Source: Anaerolineales bacterium (lineage in GTDB: Bacteria; Chloroflexota; Anaerolineae; Anaerolineales; Villigracilaceae). From it: a stretch of DNA of 64,000 nucleotides. The stretch covers positions 1 to 64,000 of the forward strand of contig JACZJC010000021.1 in NCBI GenBank assembly GCA_014860745.1, written 5' to 3'. Both the position numbers and the translations under genes were made by a program. Of this stretch, positions 37,298 through 50,730 are shown piece after piece. The number at the start of each line of letters is the position of its first letter. Within the stretch, counting starts at the first letter, position 1. The notes beneath the pieces are model-generated. The model did not search any database, had not been told where the DNA came from, and was given only the letters and a program-made list of their open reading frames with translations.

Positions 37298-38239
37298 ATG
37301 ACAAAAAACTTTGCTGTGATCGGCGTGGGCGGTTACATCGCGCCGCGCCATTTGCGAGCCATTCGGGATACGGGCAATCAACTCCTTGCCGCAGTAGACC
37401 CCAAGGATTCGGTGGGCGTGCTGGATCAATATTCATTCGATGTGAAATTCTTTACCGAGATCGAACGCTTCGACCGTCATCTCGAAAAACTGCGCCGCGG
37501 ACCCGAAGAAGGGCGCATCCACTATGTTTCGATCTGCTCGCCAAACTATTTGCATGACGCCCACTGCCGCCTTGCCCTGCATTCCGGCGCGGACGTGATC
37601 TGCGAAAAACCGCTTGTCATCAACCCCTGGAATTTGGATGCCCTTGAAGAGATCGAAGCGGAAACCCAGCATCGCATCCATACGATCCTGCAATTGCGTG
37701 TGCACCCTGAATTGATCAAACTTCGAGAGTCGCTTCAAAAGCAAAACGCCGTCCATGATGTGGAGTTAACCTACATCACCAGCCGCGGACCCTGGTATCA
37801 GGTCTCCTGGAAGGGGCATGCGGATAAATCCGGCGGCGTGGCCACAAATATCGGCGTGCATTTCTTTGATTTGTTGATGTGGCTCTTCGGTTCTGTAAAC
37901 GGCATCAAGGTTTATCGCTCGGACGAACAGCGCATGTCCGGGTTCATCGAGTTGGAAAAGGCGCGCGTGCGCTGGTATTTATCCGTCGATAAAAATGACC
38001 TGCCGCCTCAGGTGAAGGCTGGCGGCAAAACCACCTATCGTTCCATCACGGTGGATGGAAAGGAAGTTGAATTTTCCGAAGGCTTCACCGATCTGCACAC
38101 CCGCGTATACGAAGAGACGCTTGCCGGACGCGGTTTTGGAATTAAGGATGCGCGTTCTTCTATTACTCTCACGCATGCCATTCGAACTTCGCCCATCTCA
38201 GCGGTGGATGAGTTGGTCCACCCGTTTTTGAAGAAATGA
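37298..38239 (+). CDS. wbpB: UDP-N-acetyl-2-amino-2-deoxyglucuronate dehydrogenase (WbpB/WlbA)
   Basis: Oxidises C3 of UDP-GlcNAcA to the 3-keto sugar, using NAD. The 313-residue protein belongs to the Gfo/Idh/MocA family, with the N-terminal dinucleotide motif [17 protein letters not shown] and the CEKPLVIN motif (EKP at 103-105). [20 protein letters not shown] (about 184-203) is typical of the WbpB/WlbA subgroup and carries the catalytic His. It is followed without gaps by wbpD and wbpE, the next two enzymes of the same pathway, which makes the call secure. Confidence 0.93.
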
Positions 38240-38826
38240 AGAAGAGAATGGCGGATTATTTCGTTCACGAATCCAGTTATGTGGATGATGGCGCTCAGAT
38301 CGGCGCGGGCACCAAGATTTGGCATTTCTGCCATGTGATGCCCCGCGCGAAAATCGGCGAGCGATGCAACATCGGCCAGAACGTCCTGGTCTCTTCGGAT
38401 GTGAGCATCGGGGATAATGTAAAGATTCAAAACAATGTTTCATTGTATACAGGCGTGATCGTGGAGGACGATGTTTTTCTTGGACCCTCGATGGTATTTA
38501 CCAATGTCATCAATCCGCGCAGCCATGTCAGCAGGAAAGATGAATATAAAACCACGTTGGTTCGAAAGGGTGCCTCCATTGGGGCGAATGCCACGATCGT
38601 GTGCGGTACAACGTTGGGTAAATATTGTTTTGTCGGCGCGGGGGCTGTGGTAACGAAGGATGTCCCAGACTATGCACTCGTCTATGGCTCGCCCGCCCGC
38701 GTGCGCGGATGGATGTGTCAATGCGGCGAGCAGTTGAAATTCGAAGGTGACCGCGCCGTCTGCAACAGCTGCGGAGATGCTTATAGAAAACAGGACCAGG
38801 TTGTCGATCCGGAGAGAGGCGAGTGA
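38236..38826 (+). CDS. wbpD: UDP-2-acetamido-3-amino-2,3-dideoxyglucuronate N-acetyltransferase (WbpD/WlbB)
   Basis: Acetylates the 3-amino group made by WbpE, using acetyl-CoA. The 196-residue protein is a left-handed beta-helix with hexapeptide repeats ([31 protein letters not shown]). It has the family's [37 protein letters not shown] segment. The C-terminal 40 residues add four cysteines in two pairs (CQC and CNSC), a probable zinc ribbon seen in part of the family. ATGA overlaps the wbpB stop. The start MKKRM is followed by a second Met at residue 5. Confidence 0.93.
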
Positions 38827-39923
38827 TGATTTCATTAGTCGATTTAACGACGCAGTATCATTCCATCAAGAAGGAGATCGATGCGGCTGTCCTATCCACG
38901 CTGGAATCGGGACATTTTATTCTTGGGCCGCAGGTGACAAAATTCGAGGAAAGCATTGCAACGTATCTGGGCGTGAACCATGCGATTGGCCTCGCTTCCG
39001 GGACGGATGCATTGGTGCTGGCCTTGCGCGCGTTGAATATCGGGGCGGGCGACGAAGTGATCATCCCCGCTTATACATTTTTTGCCACGGCTGGCACGGT
39101 GATGTCGGTTGGCGCGAAGCCGGTGTTCGTGGATGTGGAACCGCAGAGTTATCAAATGGATGTGAACAGGATCGCGGCGATGATTACATCGAAAACAAAG
39201 GCGATCATTCCGGTGCATTTGTATGGCCATCCCGCCGAGATGAATCCAATCCTTGAAATTGCACGTATCCATAACTTGAAAGTGATCGAAGATAATGCGC
39301 AGGGTTTTGGCGCGGAATATTTGGGAAAGAAAACAGGTTCGCTTGGCGACATTGGCTGTTTGAGTTTTTTCCCGACGAAAAATCTCGGCGCATTTGGGGA
39401 TGCCGGCATGGTGTTGACGAACGACCCCGCGCTGGCGGAACGAATGCGGATGCTGCGCACGCACGGCTGGAAGAAAAAATATTATTCAGAAGAGGTTGGC
39501 TATAACAGCCGCCTGGATGCCTTGCAGGCAGCGATCTTACAGGCGAAGTTTGCGCATGTCGATTCGTGGAATGAAAAGCGCCGCGAGCTTGCGCATCGAT
39601 ATAGCGAGCACCTTGCTCCGCTGGGAGTGGTTGTCCCAGTCGAACGCGATTGGGGGAAGCATGTGTACCACTTGTACATCATCCGGTCCAAGCGCCGCGA
39701 TGAATTGCAGGCCTTCCTGAAGCAGAAGGGGATCGCTTCGGAAGTGTATTATCCATTGCCGCCGCATCTTTCCGTGCCATGCCGCGCGTTTGGATATAAA
39801 GAAGGCGATTTTCCGCACGCCGAGCTGGCCGCACGCGAGACGCTGGCGCTTCCACTGTACCCGGAGTTGACTCTGTCTCAACAGGATGAAGTCATCGCGG
39901 CTGTGAGAGCGTTTGTTGGTTGA
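38826..39923 (+). CDS. wbpE: UDP-2-acetamido-2-deoxy-3-oxo-glucuronate aminotransferase (WbpE/WlbC)
   Basis: PLP-dependent DegT/DnrJ/EryC1/StrS aminotransferase that installs the 3-amino group with glutamate as donor. In the 365-residue protein the PLP lysine is Lys185 in FFPTKNLGAFGDAG. IEDNAQGFGAEYLGKKTGSLGD (154-175) and the N-terminal ESGHFILGPQVTKFE are typical of the family. The ATG at 38826 overlaps the wbpD stop by one base; a GTG three bases upstream is also possible. With wbpA, wbpB and wbpD it gives UDP-2,3-diacetamido-2,3-dideoxyglucuronic acid. No wbpI 2-epimerase was seen. Confidence 0.92.
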   Translation: MISLVDLTTQYHSIKKEIDAAVLSTLESGHFILGPQVTKFEESIATYLGVNHAIGLASGTDALVLALRALNIGAGDEVIIPAYTFFATAGTVMSVGAKPVFVDVEPQSYQMDVNRIAAMITSKTKAIIPVHLYGHPAEMNPILEIARIHNLKVIEDNAQGFGAEYLGKKTGSLGDIGCLSFFPTKNLGAFGDAGMVLTNDPALAERMRMLRTHGWKKKYYSEEVGYNSRLDALQAAILQAKFAHVDSWNEKRRELAHRYSEHLAPLGVVVPVERDWGKHVYHLYIIRSKRRDELQAFLKQKGIASEVYYPLPPHLSVPCRAFGYKEGDFPHAELAARETLALPLYPELTLSQQDEVIAAVRAFVG

Positions 39924-43917: not shown

Positions 43918-44967
43918 ATGACCAGAGAACTTACGATCGACAATTTCACAATATCCGATGACAGTGATTGCTACGTCATTGCCGAGATCGGCAATAACCA
44001 TCAGGGCGATTTGCAAAAGGCGAAGGAATTGTTCAAAGCCGCCAAGGAATGCGGCGTGGATGCGGTTAAACTGCAGAAGCGCGATAACAAATCCCTGCTG
44101 ACGAGGGCCGCATACGACAAGCCGTATGATAACGAAAACAGTTTTGGTGCCACCTATGGCGAACACCGTGAGGCATTGGAGTTTGGACGCGAAGAATATA
44201 TCGAGTTGAAGAAGTATGCTCATGAACTTGGCCTGACAATGTTCGCCACCGCTTTCGACATGAAAAGTGCGGACTTTCTTGCTGAACTCGATATGCCGCT
44301 TTATAAAGTCGCTTCGGGAGATCTGAAGAACACCCCGCTTCTCAAACATATTGCAAAGATCGGCAGGCCGATGATCATCAGCACGGGCGGCGGAACGATG
44401 GAAGACGTCCAACGTGCTTATGACGCCATCATGCCTATTAATTCAAAGTTATGCATATTGCAGTGCACCGCATCCTACCCCGCCGAACCGCAGGATTTGA
44501 ATCTGCGCGTCATCACCACCTATCGTGAAGCGTTCCCCGATGTGGTGATTGGTTTATCCGACCATGAAAACGGCATTGCAATGGCGGTGGCAGCGTATGT
44601 GCTAGGCTCCCGTATGGTGGAACAGCACTTCACGCTCAACCATACGTGGAAAGGCACCGACCATGCCTTTTCCCTCGAACCGATCGGCATGCGGAAACTT
44701 GTCCGAGACTTGCGCCGGGTACGTGCCGCCCTTGGAGATGGTGAGAAAAAAATCTACCCCAGTGAAGTTAATCCCATCACAAAGATGGGGAAGAAACTCG
44801 TCGCTTCACACGACCTCAAAGCTGGTCATACGTTGACGATGTCGGACATCGCTGTCAAATCTCCCAGCGACGGCATCCCGCCGTATGAATTGGATAATGT
44901 CATCGGCAGAACCCTGACGAAGGATCTGCTCGAGGATGATAATTTTTCGTTCGAGATTTTGAAGTAA
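43918..44967 (+). CDS. neuB: N-acetylneuraminate/nonulosonate synthase (NeuB family)
   Basis: Condenses phosphoenolpyruvate with a 6-carbon amino sugar to give a 9-carbon nonulosonic acid. The 349-residue protein has the TIM-barrel start YVIAEIGNNHQGDLQKAKELFKAAKECGVDAVKLQ (19-53). Other conserved segments are FATAFDMKSADFL, YKVASGDLKNTPLL and GLSDHENGIAMA, and EQHFTLNHTWKGTDHAFSLEP. The antifreeze-like SAF domain is at about 290-349. Whether the product is sialic, legionaminic or another acid cannot be told from sequence. Neighbouring aldehyde dehydrogenase, CMP-transferase and transketolase genes suggest a non-standard product. Confidence 0.92.
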   Translation: MTRELTIDNFTISDDSDCYVIAEIGNNHQGDLQKAKELFKAAKECGVDAVKLQKRDNKSLLTRAAYDKPYDNENSFGATYGEHREALEFGREEYIELKKYAHELGLTMFATAFDMKSADFLAELDMPLYKVASGDLKNTPLLKHIAKIGRPMIISTGGGTMEDVQRAYDAIMPINSKLCILQCTASYPAEPQDLNLRVITTYREAFPDVVIGLSDHENGIAMAVAAYVLGSRMVEQHFTLNHTWKGTDHAFSLEPIGMRKLVRDLRRVRAALGDGEKKIYPSEVNPITKMGKKLVASHDLKAGHTLTMSDIAVKSPSDGIPPYELDNVIGRTLTKDLLEDDNFSFEILK

Positions 44968-44976
44968 TTTACGATT

Positions 44977-45046
44977 TGTCATTCTGAGCGAAGCGGAGAA
45001 TCTCTCCCCATGAAAGTAGAGACCTTTCGCTATGCTCAGGGTGACA
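44977..45046. repeat. TGTCATTCTGAGCGAAG-type intergenic inverted repeat
   Basis: TGTCATTCTGAGC (44977-44989) and GCTCAGGGTGACA (45034-45046) form imperfect inverted ends of a roughly 70-bp element. The type is widespread between genes in many phyla. It separates neuB from the aldehyde dehydrogenase gene. Confidence 0.7.
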
Positions 45047-45069
45047 TGGTGTAGTAATAAAGGCACATT

Positions 45070-46530
45070 ATGCTTCCCACTCAAATCCCCAACTGGATCG
45101 GAATTCAGGAAAAGCCCACTCAAGCGGATGAGTGGTTCGATAAACTCAACCCCGCAAACGGACAACTCCTCTGCAAAGTGGCGCGTTCGCGTGCTGCGGA
45201 TATTGCTCAAGCCATTGAAGCGGCGAAGAAGGCCCAGCCTGCCTGGGCGGAGACGCCCGCTGTGCAGCGCGGCATGATCCTGCATAAGATTGTGGTAGGG
45301 ATGCAAAACCGTCAGAGTGAGATCGCTGCCATTGTCGCCGCCGAAACTGGAAAGTCTATGAAAGAGGCGTTGGGCGAAACGGGCGGAGCGATTCAATGTG
45401 GATTGTTCTACGCCAGCGAAGGTCAACGTTTGTATGGTCGCACCACTACGAGCGGCACGGCGAATAAATATGCGATGACGATTCGTCAGCCCATCGGTGT
45501 GGCGGGATTAATTATTGCGGCAAATACTCCCATTGCAAATGTGGCGTGGAAAGTTTTTCCCGCTTTGGTTTGCGGCAATGCCGCGATTTTGAAAGCTGCT
45601 GAAGATACGCCAGCCACGGCATGGATCTTTGGGCAGATCGCAAAGGAAGCAGGCTTACCCGATGGTGTGTTGAGCATCATGCAGGGTTTTGGCGAAGAGG
45701 CGGGCGCGCCATTGGTGGAACACCCTGATGTGGGCGTGATCAGTTTCACTGGCTCGACCGAGGTGGGGCGCATGATCAATCGCTCGGCGGGGGAACGCTT
45801 CGCGCGCATCTCGCTGGAACTGGGCGGGAAGAATCCGCTTGTGGTGTGTGACGACGCCGATCTGGAGAACGCTGCCAAGTGGGTGTTGCTCTCCGCATTC
45901 AGCAATGCAGGACAGCGTTGCGCTTCTACCAGCCGTGTTATCATTTTTGAATCGGTATATGAAAAGTTCCGTGACATGCTGGTGGAAAAGACAAAAAAGT
46001 TGAAAGTTGGTATCACGGATGATTGTGATTTTGGCGCTGTTATAAATGAAGGACAATTGCTCAATATGGTCTCTGCCGTGGAAAAGGCGAAAAAGAACGG
46101 CGCGACGATTTTATGTGGCGGCGAGCGCATGACCGATGACGAGCACCGCGAAGGCTATTACATGGCGCCGACTCTGATTGAAAACGTCGACCCGCATGAT
46201 GAAATTTCGGAGTGCGAATTGTTTGGTCCAGTGGCATTGTTATTCCGTGCAAAGGACTTTGAACACGCATTGGCAATGGCGAACGATACGCCATATGGAT
46301 TGACGGCCAGCATTCACACCAAGAGTATTCACCGCGCTACCCGTTTTTACGACAAAGTTCAAACAGGTGTGGCAGTCGTCAATGCTGGCACGCACGGCTC
46401 CGAGCCACACATGCCATTCGGCGGGCGCAAACTTTCGGGCAACGGTTCGCGTGAACCGGGCACCGAGGCGCTCAATATTTATTCTGAATTGAAAGATGTC
46501 TATATCAACATCGACCCGGCGCAGGTATGA
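45070..46530 (+). CDS. Aldehyde dehydrogenase (NAD(P)-dependent)
   Basis: Oxidises an aldehyde to a carboxylic acid. The 486 residues form a complete ALDH. They include AANTPIANVAWK (150-161, oxyanion Asn), FTGSTEVGRMI (226-236), the general base Glu250 in LELGGKNP and the nucleophile Cys284 in GQRCAST. FGPVALLFRAKDFEHALAMANDTPYGL and the C-terminal PFGGRKLSGNGSREPG are also present. The substrate is unknown. Its stop overlaps the start of the CMP-transferase by 4 bases, so it is part of the nonulosonate module, which is unusual. A sugar semialdehyde substrate is an inference. Confidence 0.9.
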   Translation: MLPTQIPNWIGIQEKPTQADEWFDKLNPANGQLLCKVARSRAADIAQAIEAAKKAQPAWAETPAVQRGMILHKIVVGMQNRQSEIAAIVAAETGKSMKEALGETGGAIQCGLFYASEGQRLYGRTTTSGTANKYAMTIRQPIGVAGLIIAANTPIANVAWKVFPALVCGNAAILKAAEDTPATAWIFGQIAKEAGLPDGVLSIMQGFGEEAGAPLVEHPDVGVISFTGSTEVGRMINRSAGERFARISLELGGKNPLVVCDDADLENAAKWVLLSAFSNAGQRCASTSRVIIFESVYEKFRDMLVEKTKKLKVGITDDCDFGAVINEGQLLNMVSAVEKAKKNGATILCGGERMTDDEHREGYYMAPTLIENVDPHDEISECELFGPVALLFRAKDFEHALAMANDTPYGLTASIHTKSIHRATRFYDKVQTGVAVVNAGTHGSEPHMPFGGRKLSGNGSREPGTEALNIYSELKDVYINIDPAQV

Positions 46531-47276
46531 GCAAAGAGAACCCTTCGATCATCGCCTTGATTCCCGCGCGTGCCGGTTCTAAACGTGTACAGGGAAAAAA
46601 TATCCGTCCGCTGGCGGGGCATCCGCTCATTGCGTACAGCATCTGTGCCGCAAAGCAGAGCGGAATCTTTTCTGATATTCTCGTCTCCACTGATTCGGAA
46701 GAGTACGCTGAAATTTCCCGTGAGTATGGTGCGGAAGTTCCATTTTTGCGCCCTGCGGAGATTTCTGGAGATCTTGCTCTTGACATCGAATGGCTGGATT
46801 TCACGCTTCACAAACTTAAAGAGATGGGACGCGAGTACGATTGCTTCAGCATCCTGCGCCCGACCAGCCCCTTCCGATTGCCGAGTACCATTCAGCGGGC
46901 GTGGAAGGAATTTCTAGCTGAAGAAGGTGTGGACTCATTGCGTGCGGTGGAGAAGGTGAAGGAACACCCCGGCAAGATGTGGGTGATTCGCGGCAAGCGT
47001 ATGATGCCTTTGCTTCCGTTCGGACCGAAGGAGCAGCCTTGGCACAGCACACCGTATCAAGGCTTGCCCGAAGTCTATTCGCAGAATGCCAGCCTTGAAA
47101 TTGCCTGGTCGCGTGTGGTCTTTGATGGACGGACGATTGCGGGGGAAGTGGTCATGCCCTTCATCTCGGAAGGCTATGAAGGCTTTGACGTGAATCATCC
47201 CTACGATTGGGAGTTGGCGGAACGTCTCATTGCGAGCGGAGAGGCGGAACTGCCGAAGATAGAAAAAATTTCATAA
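46527..47276 (+). CDS. CMP-nonulosonate cytidylyltransferase (NeuA/LegF/PseF-like)
   Basis: Activates a nonulosonic or related 2-keto-3-deoxy sugar acid with CTP. The 249-residue protein has the family motif LIPARAGSKRVQGKNIRPLAGHPL (11-34), SDILVSTDSEEYAEISREYGAEVPFLRP and CFSILRPTSPFRLPSTI. The C-terminal AGEVVMPFISEGYEGFDVNHPYDWELAE is usual for the family. It overlaps the aldehyde dehydrogenase gene and is separated from the transketolase gene by a GC-rich hairpin region. It pairs logically with neuB. Confidence 0.9.
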   Translation: MSKENPSIIALIPARAGSKRVQGKNIRPLAGHPLIAYSICAAKQSGIFSDILVSTDSEEYAEISREYGAEVPFLRPAEISGDLALDIEWLDFTLHKLKEMGREYDCFSILRPTSPFRLPSTIQRAWKEFLAEEGVDSLRAVEKVKEHPGKMWVIRGKRMMPLLPFGPKEQPWHSTPYQGLPEVYSQNASLEIAWSRVVFDGRTIAGEVVMPFISEGYEGFDVNHPYDWELAERLIASGEAELPKIEKIS

Positions 47277-47325
47277 TTTTGCTCAAGCCGCCGTCCTCGG
47301 CGGCGGAGACGCCGCCGGAGCAAAA
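47277..47325 (+). other. Multi-hairpin element upstream of transketolase
   Basis: Outer arms TTTTGCTC (47277-47284) and GAGCAAAA (47318-47325) enclose three complementary GC blocks, GCCGCCG, CGGCGGC and GCCGCCG. The middle block can pair with either flank, giving two mutually exclusive hairpins. It may be a dispersed repeat or an attenuator-like leader. Confidence 0.5.
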
Positions 47326-47339
47326 CACAAAGAGGAAAC

Positions 47340-49316
47340 ATGGTTGAACTAAAATTAATCCCTGTGGAAGAATTCAAGCGTGTGCGCAATTCTTCTGCCG
47401 ACAAATACAAGAAACTCCAGATCATTGCGGATATGTGCCGCGCCAACACGCTCACGGAAGTGAAGCGTGCCGGGTCAGGTCATCTTGGCTCGAGCTTCAG
47501 TGCGATGGATATCGTGGTCTGGATGTACTACGAAGAGATGAACACGCTCAAGGTTGGTTTTGACAGCCCTGACCGCGATATTTATTTTTCATCGAAAGGG
47601 CATGATGTGCCGGGCTTGTATGCCGTGCTTCATTCGCTCGGTGAAATTTCCGATGCCATGCTTATGTCACTGCGCCGCCTCAATGGGTTGAACGGTCATC
47701 CCGATATCGGCAATCGCGGCATGGAAGCCAACTCGGGTTCGCTCGGCATGGGCATCTCGAAGGGGCGCGGCATGGCGTGGGCGAAGAAGTACAACAACAA
47801 TGGCGGGCATGTGTTCGTGATGACTGGCGACGGCGAGTTGCAGGAAGGTCAGAATTACGAAGCCTTGCATGTTACTGCACATCAAAAGGTCGATAATCTC
47901 ACTGTGATTGTCGATGACAACAAGGTGCAATCTGATAAGCCCGTTGCCGAGATTATTGATCTTCGCAACCTTGTCGAAAAATTCACTGCGTTTGGCTGGC
48001 ATGTCATTCGCATTGATGGGCATGATTTTCGTTCCATCGAAAAGGCGCTTGCCGAAGCCAAGCAGGTCAAAGGCAAGCCGCAGATCATCATCGCCGATAC
48101 CATCAAGGGTCGCGGCATCTCGTTCATGGAGCATCCTGCTGCGCTTGAGATTGGAAAAGGACTCTACCCCTGGCATTCTGGTGCGCCGGATGATGCAGCC
48201 TTCGAGACGGGTTATTCTGAACTGATTCAGCGCATCCATGCGGACCTCAAAGCTGTGTCGCTCGACCCGTTGCATTTGACTCCCGTTGAGCCGGAAGTGA
48301 AAACAGCGACGCCATCAATGCTCGTAGGTGAACCTCTCAGCCAGGCGGCGCTGGATCGTCTTTCTGTGAAGCCAACAGATGAATACGTTTCGCGCGCGTA
48401 TGGTCAAGCCTTGGTGGAACTTGCCGCCAAGCGCAAGGACATTGTCGTGCTCGATGCTGACCTCTCCTCTGATTGCAAAGTCCGCGACTTTGAAAATACC
48501 TATCCCGACCGCTTCATCGAGAACGGCATCGCCGAACAGGATATGGTTTCAATGGCGGCAGGTCTTGCCCGTCAGGGACTTCTGCCTGTCGTCAATTCAT
48601 TTGCCAGTTTCCTTGCTTCGCGCGCCAATGAGCAAATTTATAACGCCGCGGGCGAGAAATCCAAAATCATTTATGCATTGCATTATGCGGGCTTGATTCC
48701 TGCGGGACCGGGTAAATCGCACCAATCTTTGCGCGATATTTCACTCTTCTCCGCGTTGCCGAATTGCACCATCTTGCAACCATGCAACGCCGAAGAAACC
48801 CGCATGGCAATGGATTACGCCGTGAACAAAACCGATGACGTGGTTGCGTTGCGACTCATCATTGGACCCAGTCCGCGCCGGATTGCGCTCCCGAATGGGT
48901 ACGAGTTTAAGCCTGGGCAGGGCTGCCAACTCACAGTGGGGAAAGATGCGGTCATGTTCGCGTATGGACCGGTCATGTTGCAGGAAGCGCTACTCGCCAG
49001 CGAACTCCTCGCCGAGCGCGGATTCGGCTTGAGCATCATCAACATGCCCTGGCTTAACCGCGTGGATGTGAAATGGCTGACCCAAGTTCTCAAGCCTTAC
49101 TCAAATATCTTCATGCTCGAAGATCATCACCCCGCTGGCGGCTTGATGGATAACATCCTCACTGTTTGCAGCGAACATGGTTTATTGAATGGCAAGCAGA
49201 TGATCAAATTTGCTGTGGAAGGCTATCCCGCCTGCGGAACTCCGCAGCAGGCATTGGCATATCACGAACTGGATGGTGTGTCATTGTCCAAGCGTGTGAT
49301 GAAATATTGTGGTTAA
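47340..49316 (+). CDS. Transketolase (full length, both domains)
   Basis: Thiamine-diphosphate enzyme that moves two-carbon ketol units. The 658-residue protein contains the N-terminal TPP domain with AGSGHLGSSFSAMDI, FSSKGHDVPGLYAVL, the TPP motif GDGELQEGQNYEALHVTAHQKVDNLTVIVDDN, and IIADTIKGRGISFMEH. The pyrimidine-binding domain starts near 349 (YVSRAYGQALVELA) with FIENGIAEQDMVSMAAGLAR and FASFLASRANEQI. The C-terminal domain follows. Domain order is standard. Its place directly after the CMP-transferase, with a good GAGGAAA site, suggests it makes a special sugar precursor rather than serving central metabolism. Confidence 0.85.
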   Translation: MVELKLIPVEEFKRVRNSSADKYKKLQIIADMCRANTLTEVKRAGSGHLGSSFSAMDIVVWMYYEEMNTLKVGFDSPDRDIYFSSKGHDVPGLYAVLHSLGEISDAMLMSLRRLNGLNGHPDIGNRGMEANSGSLGMGISKGRGMAWAKKYNNNGGHVFVMTGDGELQEGQNYEALHVTAHQKVDNLTVIVDDNKVQSDKPVAEIIDLRNLVEKFTAFGWHVIRIDGHDFRSIEKALAEAKQVKGKPQIIIADTIKGRGISFMEHPAALEIGKGLYPWHSGAPDDAAFETGYSELIQRIHADLKAVSLDPLHLTPVEPEVKTATPSMLVGEPLSQAALDRLSVKPTDEYVSRAYGQALVELAAKRKDIVVLDADLSSDCKVRDFENTYPDRFIENGIAEQDMVSMAAGLARQGLLPVVNSFASFLASRANEQIYNAAGEKSKIIYALHYAGLIPAGPGKSHQSLRDISLFSALPNCTILQPCNAEETRMAMDYAVNKTDDVVALRLIIGPSPRRIALPNGYEFKPGQGCQLTVGKDAVMFAYGPVMLQEALLASELLAERGFGLSIINMPWLNRVDVKWLTQVLKPYSNIFMLEDHHPAGGLMDNILTVCSEHGLLNGKQMIKFAVEGYPACGTPQQALAYHELDGVSLSKRVMKYCG

Positions 49317-49320
49317 TCGA

Positions 49321-50730
49321 ATGTCTGAAATAAAAATTGGCATCCCCCTGCATGGCAAGATGGCGGCGCGCGCCTTCCATCAGCCTTCCTTCCGCCAGCG
49401 ATTGACGGAAGGCGGTTTCAAGCCGATGTATTTTCTCAGCCCGGTTTATTATCGTTCTTTTGAATTTGACCCCGAACAATATTTTGAGCTGCAAGTGGAG
49501 CAGTATGATGCTCAATACAAAAAACACTTCCTCTTACAGCAGTTAAGAATGCTGCGCCGATTTGTCGTTGTCACCGAGACGACCGACCTGCGTCTCCGTG
49601 AGATGATTGAAAGCAAGCTTTTCGATGCAACCCTTTTGGGAATGGCGGTGCAAATGAGCTATGTCAGCACCCTGCGTCGAATTCCCGGCATGGGCAGGTT
49701 GTTGGCATGGCTGGAAAGACAGCTTTATATTACTCACGAACATGACAAAGACTTCAAAAAGCAGGATATTCGTTGTGTGTTGACGCCGGGGATGGGTAAT
49801 TATGGCTATTGGAATGAAAACAACTTTGCGCTTGAAGCACGAAGGATGGGACTTCCTGTCTATTGTGCAATATCCAACTACGATAACATTGTGAATATGG
49901 GCTATCGCGGTTTCACTCCGGATTGCATGGCCGTTTGGAGCCGGCAAATGGCAGATGAAGCCATCCGACTGCACAAGTTCCCTGCAAAAAGGTTGGAAAT
50001 AACCGGTCCCGTTCAATACGACCGATTTATGCAGCCCCTTCCTCTCAGTCGGGAGGAATTTCTACGATCCATAAATCTCGACCCCGCCAAAAAGACCATC
50101 TTATTTGCGGGTGGTGTGAACATAAACCATTATTTCGATATTTACCGCGTCTTCGTTGACCAAAGGGAAAAAGTCTGGCACGAACCGTTCAACTTTGTCG
50201 TCCGCCCATACCCGCATATCAAATTACTCGGTTCGCCCGCTTGGCAGGTCCTGGAAGATTTGTTTAGGAAAGCAGGTGCGTACATATCCAATCCCGGCTC
50301 CATCGATGCCAACGGTGACCGTACCGCCGAACTAAGCGTGGACCTTGCCTTCGATGAAGGCCCCGACGAACTCAACTACCTCCTTCGCTGTAGCGATGTG
50401 ATGGTGAACTACTTTTCCACCATCGGATTGGAGGCCGCGATCTGCGATCTGCCCACTATCCATGTTGCGTTCGATCCGTATACTTTTGGCTTGCGGTTCA
50501 GCGTTACTACAAGTTTTCTTCAGCGCCAGACACATAACCGCAGACCCTTACGCCTTGCTGCCGCCCGCGTAGCAAAAGATGAGAAGGATCTATTCAAGGC
50601 TCTCGATGATTATCTTAACAACAGAACGCTTGACCGTGATGCCCGTCGTGTCTATGCCGAATCTGAATGTGGCGAGCTGGATGGCGGGGCCGGCGCTCGT
50701 CTGGTGAATATGATAAAGAGCAGATTGTAA
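49321..50730 (+). CDS. Putative GT-B glycosyl/glycerophosphotransferase-like protein
   Basis: A 469-residue protein without a firm family. The start MSEIKIGIPLHGKMAARAFHQPSF at 49321 is preferred to a GTG four codons upstream. Its C-terminal half resembles the CDP-glycerol glycerophosphotransferase and capsule-type GT-B fold: KRLEITGPVQYDRFM, AKKTILFAGGVNINHYFDIYRVF, NFVVRPYPHIKL and especially YLLRCSDVMVNYFSTIGLEAAICDLPTIHVAFD. No membrane helix is evident. Coming right after the CMP-transferase and transketolase genes, it is a candidate for the transferase that uses the CMP-sugar. That is an inference. Confidence 0.55.
   Translation: MSEIKIGIPLHGKMAARAFHQPSFRQRLTEGGFKPMYFLSPVYYRSFEFDPEQYFELQVEQYDAQYKKHFLLQQLRMLRRFVVVTETTDLRLREMIESKLFDATLLGMAVQMSYVSTLRRIPGMGRLLAWLERQLYITHEHDKDFKKQDIRCVLTPGMGNYGYWNENNFALEARRMGLPVYCAISNYDNIVNMGYRGFTPDCMAVWSRQMADEAIRLHKFPAKRLEITGPVQYDRFMQPLPLSREEFLRSINLDPAKKTILFAGGVNINHYFDIYRVFVDQREKVWHEPFNFVVRPYPHIKLLGSPAWQVLEDLFRKAGAYISNPGSIDANGDRTAELSVDLAFDEGPDELNYLLRCSDVMVNYFSTIGLEAAICDLPTIHVAFDPYTFGLRFSVTTSFLQRQTHNRRPLRLAAARVAKDEKDLFKALDDYLNNRTLDRDARRVYAESECGELDGGAGARLVNMIKSRL

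Follow-up and report, generated by a model that had tools for sequence, protein, structure and literature searches.

A conserved NeuB, aldehyde dehydrogenase, CMP-transferase and transketolase module in an Anaerolineales genome suggests an apparently undescribed variant of CMP-ulosonate biosynthesis

The 64,000-nucleotide stretch analysed here (the window) comes from the genome of an Anaerolineales bacterium (GCA_014860745.1, contig JACZJC010000021.1) and encodes, in tandem on the + strand, a NeuB-family synthase, an aldehyde dehydrogenase (ALDH), a cytidine monophosphate (CMP)-ulosonate transferase (NeuA) and a transketolase (TK). We conclude that these genes are part of a genuine form of CMP-ulosonate biosynthesis that is widespread and, it appears, not yet described; its carriers probably make an unusual surface sugar. 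In other genomes the module can also include a short-chain dehydrogenase/reductase (SDR) and a KdsC-type phosphatase of the HAD family, so that up to six enzymes would presumably lead to a CMP-ulosonic acid destined for a surface glycan. To our knowledge, no known pathway combines an SDR, an ALDH and a TK for a CMP-ulosonate. No description of this gene set was found in the open-access literature searched, a search that most subscription papers and all preprints fell outside.

Reading frames and domain scans agree with the compact four-gene module that had been proposed in a sequence-only reading of the window. The NeuB (43918-44967, +, 349 aa) is a phosphoenolpyruvate (PEP)-dependent ulosonate (phosphate) synthase family protein, and the presence of both PF03102 (1.4e-79) and a SAF domain (3.9e-8) places it in the NeuB superfamily. 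The ALDH (45070-46530, +, 486 aa; PF00171, 6e-155) has the catalytic Cys284 and Glu250, and its frame overlaps that of NeuA by 4 bp (ATGA); the sequence-only reading had described these two genes as translationally coupled. NeuA (46527-47276, +, 249 aa; PF02348, 4e-21) is a NeuA/PseF-like CMP-ulosonate cytidylyltransferase. The TK (47340-49316, +, 658 aa) is a full-length transketolase-like thiamine diphosphate (ThDP) enzyme with Transketolase_N, pyr and C domains and an altered substrate pocket. Every catalytic residue checked is intact, and among the NCBIfam matches listed all four proteins score below the curated cut-offs.

The sequence-only reading had made its proposal depend on the neighbourhood recurring in other genomes, and it does recur. 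With an alignment of seven NeuBs as the query we identified 252 relatives and retained the best 80, which are 64-91% identical to the window protein. NeuB, ALDH, NeuA and TK occur together in 38 of these 80 loci, counting partial genes at contig ends, and the 38 span nine phyla plus one contig titled Bifidobacterium (phylum labels are our reading of the record titles). Represented among the 80 are Chloroflexota, delta-type lineages, Gamma- and Alphaproteobacteria, Cyanobacteria and Gemmatimonadota, as well as Acidobacteriota, Methylomirabilota, Calditrichota, Nitrospinota, Omnitrophota, Verrucomicrobiota and Latescibacterota; the named loci closest to the window come from Chloroflexota records that bear the title Anaerolineales or Candidatus Villigracilaceae. 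Pairwise distance matrices of the four proteins are correlated (r 0.81-0.88 over 33 loci plus the window, values reached in 0 of 2000 permutations), a correlation that co-inheritance and species relatedness would each be expected to produce. The NeuB tree mixes phyla somewhat (12 label changes versus a minimum of 6), which is compatible with some transfer between phyla. Among plasmids, this NeuB was identified in one record (Streptomyces NBC_01237) and among phages there were two partial matches (33-36%); a search of viral contigs for the TK returned 20 pattern-matching stretches and no relatives. Overall, given the recurrence in other phyla, the correlated distance matrices and the shared presence and absence within the order, the four-gene module almost certainly exists as a conserved unit and is not a chance arrangement. 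As a separate observation, the contig titled Bifidobacterium (a Bifidobacterium breve metagenome-assembled genome, locus L117) carries the full module and is probably mis-binned.

Gene content was counted in the 47 of 80 loci with at least 7.5 kb of downstream sequence; the remaining 33 were dropped, as many contigs end early. ALDH is present in 41 of the 47, TK in 39, NeuA (at least 55% identity) in 38, the SDR in 38 and the KdsC-type HAD in 26, so that an SDR is usual and a phosphatase frequent in addition to the enzymes recognized from the window. TK is absent from 35 of the 80 fetched stretches. In a further search of 16 of these genomes, 14 (five of five cyanobacterial genomes and nine of 11 others) proved to encode a TK elsewhere, with 47-73% identity to the query. 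For example, in Moorena bouillonii some 17-18 kb separate NeuB from NeuA and TK, which lie together, and one Rhodospirillaceae genome has a cluster of SDR, ALDH, NeuA, TK and one end of a HAD at a distance of about 200 kb from NeuB. The core of the module seems to consist of NeuB, SDR and TK, with ALDH a common but dispensable addition.

Across the order, the cassette is an accessory element whose genes are inherited together. The ALDH type occurs in 15 of 61 genomes, including the one under study (at least 72% identity, with the next-best ALDHs at no more than 40%). The NeuB type is in the same 15 genomes and the TK type in 16, namely those 15 and one genome that is 71% complete. In a phylum sample of 301 genomes, again including this one and with at most four TK and six NeuB candidates scored per genome, the NeuB type is found in six and the TK type in seven, with all six among the seven; the two genes are no more than 4 kb apart on one contig in five of the six and on separate contigs in the sixth. 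Most loci of the genus that were read retain the order NeuB-ALDH-NeuA-TK, some with a gene inserted between NeuA and TK, and NeuB is displaced by about 7 kb in genome G031 and about 3 kb in G017. In G017 (L051:5421-11184), ALDH, NeuA and the glycosyltransferase are each in two frames next to an unbroken TK, possibly owing to assembly errors. G029 has two copies of the module, on contigs C85 and C74, the second interrupted by contig ends.

The module TKs retain the thiamine diphosphate site and differ from other transketolases in the substrate pocket. We compared the 41 full-length proteins among the 45 module TKs found (E. coli TktA numbering; the 14 distantly located TKs lie outside these counts). 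The ThDP, Mg and donor residues H26, H66, H100, D155, E160, N185, E411, F434, F437 and H473 are present in 41 of 41, a full set shared with housekeeping and split-chain transketolases. Unlike in those enzymes, D469 is lost (Ala, Gly or Ser in all 41, with no Asp or Glu within three columns in any) and S385 is replaced by Asp in all 41. At the R358 column the module TKs have Ser, Ala, Val, Leu or Ile, at H461 Leu, Cys, Gly, Ser or Thr, and at R520 Ile or Ser, again in 41 of 41, with residues that might substitute from nearby columns in 30; H261 is not conserved among them. In E. coli TktA we take R358, S385, H461, R520 and D469 to be phosphate-binding or substrate residues, with D469 presumably reading the C2 hydroxyl of the acceptor. 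Five outside TKs used for comparison all have R520 and show a second Arg that the module TKs are without, and two of the five have R358, H461 and D469 together. On these residues, the pocket has certainly changed.

The genome itself provides a further comparison. It (G000) comprises 4.32 Mb in 82 contigs, of which C40 is the window, and contig C18 encodes a second TK of ordinary type (a 662-aa frame, 33% identical over the first domain) that keeps every residue checked. The sequence-only reading had named a sole, housekeeping transketolase as the finding that would count against it. The window TK, with its transketolase-superfamily ThDP and Mg residues, is not the only one in the genome, and in view of the ordinary second copy and the changed residues we rejected the idea that it is the housekeeping enzyme.

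The NeuB also departs from its characterized relatives. Two further NeuB genes are present in the genome (40% and 34% identity), and the window protein scores 314.7 bits against the N-acetylneuraminate synthase model TIGR03569, below the cut-off of 399.65. The SAF domain of the sialic acid synthase from meningococcus contains Arg314, which positions the N-acetyl group of N-acetylmannosamine, and the R314A variant is inactive (PMC6795526). The window NeuB has Ser315 at this position, and the column holds Ser in 70, Cys in six and Val in three of the 79 module NeuBs compared (one partial NeuB among the 80 loci was excluded), thus no Arg in any; three other SAF-bearing NeuBs have Arg, Lys and Lys. 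Ten of the 13 substrate-site residues listed in that paper are kept in nearly all module NeuBs: Glu25, Gln55, Asn74 (74 of 79, in a column adjoining alignment gaps), Thr110, Phe112, Lys129, Tyr186, Ser213, His215 and Glu234. In 78 of 79, Asn184 is replaced by Ala or Ser and Phe288 by Lys, and a Lys at the latter position could hold a phosphate. From these residues, the NeuB substrate is very probably a sugar without an N-acetyl group, and the lost Arg together with the frequent KdsC-type phosphatase points to a phosphorylated, non-N-acetylated aldose.

The same residues bear on the missing hydrolysing 2-epimerase (NeuC/LegG type, PF02350), whose absence the sequence-only reading had treated as unusual. 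A Pfam scan of 30 window ORFs identified none, the rest of the genome not having been searched for one. The absence stands for these ORFs and need not be strange, since the NeuB lacks the N-acetyl Arg and is often accompanied by a phosphatase. An ordinary sialic, legionaminic or pseudaminic acid locus into which a metabolic ALDH and a housekeeping TK had been inserted by chance would account for NeuB and NeuA belonging to the right superfamilies. It is scarcely credible given the conservation in other phyla, the second TK, the altered active sites of NeuB and TK and the lack of the epimerase in the ORFs scanned.

For the pathway, we propose a route in which the carbon chain is shortened before activation. 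NeuB would join PEP to a non-N-acetylated aldose phosphate, for which our best guess is mannose-6-phosphate, and the phosphatase would release the ulosonate. The SDR would then oxidize the penultimate hydroxyl (C8 of a nonulosonate), giving a terminal HOCH2-CO-CHOH- group, the motif cleaved by transketolases. TK might remove C8-C9 as a two-carbon ketol and leave an aldehyde at C7; because the pyranose ring of a nonulosonate leaves the C7 hydroxyl free, no ring opening would be needed. ALDH would convert the C7 aldehyde to a carboxylate and NeuA would form the CMP derivative, making the predicted product CMP-3-deoxy-hept-2-ulosaric acid, a diacid. We favour this order because it is the only arrangement we found in which all six enzymes receive a substrate made by another. 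Taken as a whole, from NeuB through HAD, SDR, TK and ALDH to NeuA and a CMP-heptulosaric acid, the mechanism is a tentative reading of the sequences that falls short of an even chance. That CMP-heptulosaric acids arise by chain shortening, with a remodelled TK trimming two carbons from an SDR-oxidized nonulosonate and ALDH capping the end as a carboxylate, is possible and rather doubtful.

The SDR was recognized via the Streptomyces NBC_01237 megaplasmid, where it lies between NeuB (54%) and TK (43%). D-mannonate oxidoreductase, gluconate 5-dehydrogenase and KduD, which the module SDR resembles (the first most closely), oxidize the penultimate carbon of sugar acids, and the Tyr/Lys pair is present in 54 of 54 module SDRs. 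The best of these relatives also suits an order in which TK, SDR and ALDH act before NeuB: ALDH would oxidize an aldose to an aldonate and the SDR would make a hexuluronate from it, TK would drop C1-C2, and NeuB would condense PEP with the resulting four-carbon aldehyde acid to give a heptulosaric acid. This order employs ALDH, SDR, TK, NeuB and NeuA and is consistent with the changed TK pocket, but it leaves the KdsC-type phosphatase of 26 of 47 loci without a role. It also sits poorly with the retention of 10 of 13 sialic acid synthase substrate-site residues (those listed in PMC6795526) in nearly all module NeuBs and with five genomes that keep NeuB, SDR and NeuA without the ALDH. Weighing these points, we consider such an order unlikely, if a little less so than the most improbable of the arrangements discussed below.

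The distribution of TK and ALDH bears on the order of their action. Thirteen loci have ALDH and no TK in the stretch, and in four of the five such genomes searched a TK is encoded elsewhere; four genomes have TK without a module-type ALDH. This pattern suits TK acting before ALDH, as in the proposed shortening. The Streptomyces locus, with NeuB, SDR and TK, has no ALDH or NeuA match in its 21.9-kb stretch; a class-III aminotransferase (identified by eye) is nearby and may be another aldehyde-using enzyme, which would fit trimming by TK. Also present in this locus (L035:2948-15416), with families assigned by eye, are genes for an RraA-like protein, an adenylation-domain protein and hydroxyphenylglycine-type enzymes, and a ulosonate-derived natural product is possible.

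Transketolase reactions are reversible, and TK might instead transfer a ketol onto the aldehyde or ketone of an SDR-oxidized ulosonate, which would extend or branch the ulosonic acid. The loss of D469, the presumed reader of the acceptor C2 hydroxyl, in 41 of 41 TKs would allow for an unusual acceptor, and a phosphorylated donor is possible for TKs with a nearby His and Arg. Addition, however, leaves no obvious substrate for ALDH, which is in 41 of 47 loci, and on balance it is an unlikely outcome. The sequence-only reading had suggested a modified ulosonic acid built by two-carbon transfer onto a sugar or by oxidation of a terminal aldehyde. The conserved module is in keeping with a modified ulosonic acid, and both chemistries fit the enzymes, but in our view removal of two carbons from a keto-ulosonate is at least as likely as their transfer onto a sugar.

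In another alternative, ALDH and TK would not act on the ulosonate itself and would instead supply a building block apart from it, as a decoration or for a precursor pool. The nearest named families of the window ALDH are alpha-ketoglutaric semialdehyde dehydrogenase, 2,5-dioxovalerate dehydrogenase and HpaE, all far below cut-off. That such families act on small semialdehydes, and that ALDH is dispensable in five genomes, would agree with a separate block; the catalytic Cys and Glu are present in 50 of 50 module ALDHs. Against it, TK co-occurs nearly completely with this NeuB subfamily where examined, and among the annotated conserved neighbours, most neighbour clusters being unannotated, no transferase for such a block was identified. 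We judge it improbable, more so than the other uses of the TK considered above.

The remaining two enzymes also have recognizable families. The window NeuA is nearest to PseF (TIGR03584; 136 bits versus a cut-off of 205.7), and its nucleotide motif of R15, G17, S18, R20, K24 and N25 is present in 47 of 47. The HAD was recognized by sequence between NeuB and SDR, and the one tested (L078) scores 99 bits against NF058599 (cut-off 180) and 125.1 against the KdsC model NF007019 (cut-off 208). In the genus of the window, neither an SDR nor a HAD lies between NeuB and ALDH. Instead, a different locus, found on contig C57 in this genome, encodes relatives of both (SDR 42-51% and HAD 36-44% identical), with the SDR in 51 of 57 genomes of the genus (32 of 32 good ones) and the HAD in 50 of 57 (31 of 32). 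Both loci that were read (G000:C57, equivalent to L174:5207-14556, and L176) have a fusion of the HAD with a NeuA domain, adjoining a short NeuB. We infer that the cassette of this genus borrows its SDR and HAD activities from this locus, with dephosphorylation in the proposed pathway then falling to the C57-encoded relative. By eye, the same locus also contains a sulfate adenylyltransferase/adenosine phosphosulfate kinase, a membrane protein and a sulfotransferase-like protein.

Several observations weigh against the chain-shortening proposal. The separate locus has its own NeuB, and sharing with the cassette is an assumption. The resemblances of SDR, ALDH, NeuA and HAD to named families are all below curated cut-offs, and the HAD is seen in no more than the 26 loci counted. 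The changes at Asn184 and Phe288 suggest that the NeuB acceptor may differ beyond the N-acetyl group. Two genomes, L069 and L090, have no module-type TK in the genome search (the best in L090 is 32%), and L090 carries an ALDH fragment of module type. Module-type ALDH was not found in the genomes L069, L081, L103, L128 and L131 (best 31-36%), and its dispensability counts against any model that requires ALDH everywhere. The proposal also names no acceptor for the released two-carbon unit. With respect to the TK pocket, 30 of 41 proteins have a His in a column next to that of H461, the window TK being of this type, an Arg lies one column from R358 in nine module TKs (those of the window genus), and an Arg lies three columns from R520 in 41 of 41; alignment with human TK places the window's near-R520 Arg on a human Arg. 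We had considered that every module TK has lost all phosphate residues, a view withdrawn owing to these shifted candidates in 30 of 41. In the other 11 there is no Arg or His within one column of R358, H461 or R520, and the phosphate site is probably lost; in the 30, including the window TK, its loss is uncertain. Judged from the pocket residues, action of the TK on an unphosphorylated substrate is somewhat favoured.

Three known pathways share parts of the module. The ketodeoxynononic acid (KDN)-9-phosphate pathway uses a NeuB-type KDN-9-phosphate synthase, a KdsC-type phosphatase and a CMP-transferase. Like the module, it combines a NeuB-family synthase, a C0-type HAD phosphatase and a CMP-transferase without a hydrolysing epimerase; unlike the module, it is not known to include an SDR, ALDH or TK, and the L078 HAD is below the NF058599 cut-off. 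In the Shewanella pathway to CMP-8-amino-Kdo, the amino derivative of 3-deoxy-manno-octulosonate (Kdo), KdnB and KdnA are an alcohol dehydrogenase of another type and a pyridoxal phosphate-dependent aminotransferase, and no carbon is known to be removed. It resembles our proposal in oxidizing a side-chain alcohol of the ulosonate before CMP activation, and differs in its aminotransferase and its type of dehydrogenase. The Kdo pathway (KdsA, KdsC and KdsB) shares PEP condensation, dephosphorylation and CMP activation with the module, whose phosphatase is KdsC-like. It has KdsA where the module has NeuB, and the module has a PseF-like transferase and three extra enzymes.

The predicted product belongs to the same class, the 3-deoxy-2-ulosaric acids, as Dha (3-deoxy-lyxo-heptulosaric acid) of plants. 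Starting from mannose-6-phosphate, we derive an L-arabino configuration for it, versus D-lyxo in plant Dha, and on this ground rejected Dha itself as the product from mannose-6-phosphate. The enzymes of plant Dha biosynthesis are listed as unidentified in a 2025 review (PMC12168206). Whatever acidic sugar the module makes would be new or as yet unexplained, in bacteria that are largely uncultured and, if it is a ulosaric acid, the module would be a first bacterial gene set for the sugar class of plant Dha. If correct, chain shortening would represent a new route to nucleotide-activated sugars and a possible lead on the origin of Dha-type sugars.

The gene following TK in the window (49309-50730, +) overlaps it by 8 bp and encodes a putative glycosyltransferase, with an NF046086 domain (8e-14) confined to residues 201-278. 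Relatives in the same position in other loci of the genus are 62-83% identical, and the protein is a plausible candidate for the glycosyltransferase that uses the CMP-sugar. A structure prediction (mean pLDDT 45.9) was uninformative. The gene after TK varies from lineage to lineage, with no counterpart of this protein shown outside the genus. Directly after TK, 11 of 42 loci encode one or two members of a single blast cluster, of which the three scanned are TIGR04396 surface-carbohydrate proteins; direct comparison of one of these (L069:4573-5976) with the 49309-50730 protein gave no significant similarity. Nine of these 11 loci have a further protein next, a sulfotransferase in the one case scanned.

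Upstream of NeuB, the locus L070 (5215-9466) encodes a fatty acyl-AMP ligase (767 bits, cut-off 600), an epimerase-like protein (by eye) and a serine palmitoyltransferase (632 bits, cut-off 500). Models were scanned in L070, and blast clusters place the trio also in L072, L081, L086, L092, L118, L129 and similar loci. That the module adjoins serine palmitoyltransferase and fatty acyl-AMP ligase genes in some lineages hints at an acidic glycan anchored to a sphingolipid. A different trio, of an oxidoreductase, a hexapeptide acetyltransferase and a DegT aminotransferase in a row, is present in the window at 37298-39923 (families assigned by eye). We take it to resemble the WlbA/WbpD/WbpE amino-sugar pathway, and the same three genes also adjoin the module in several loci of the genus.

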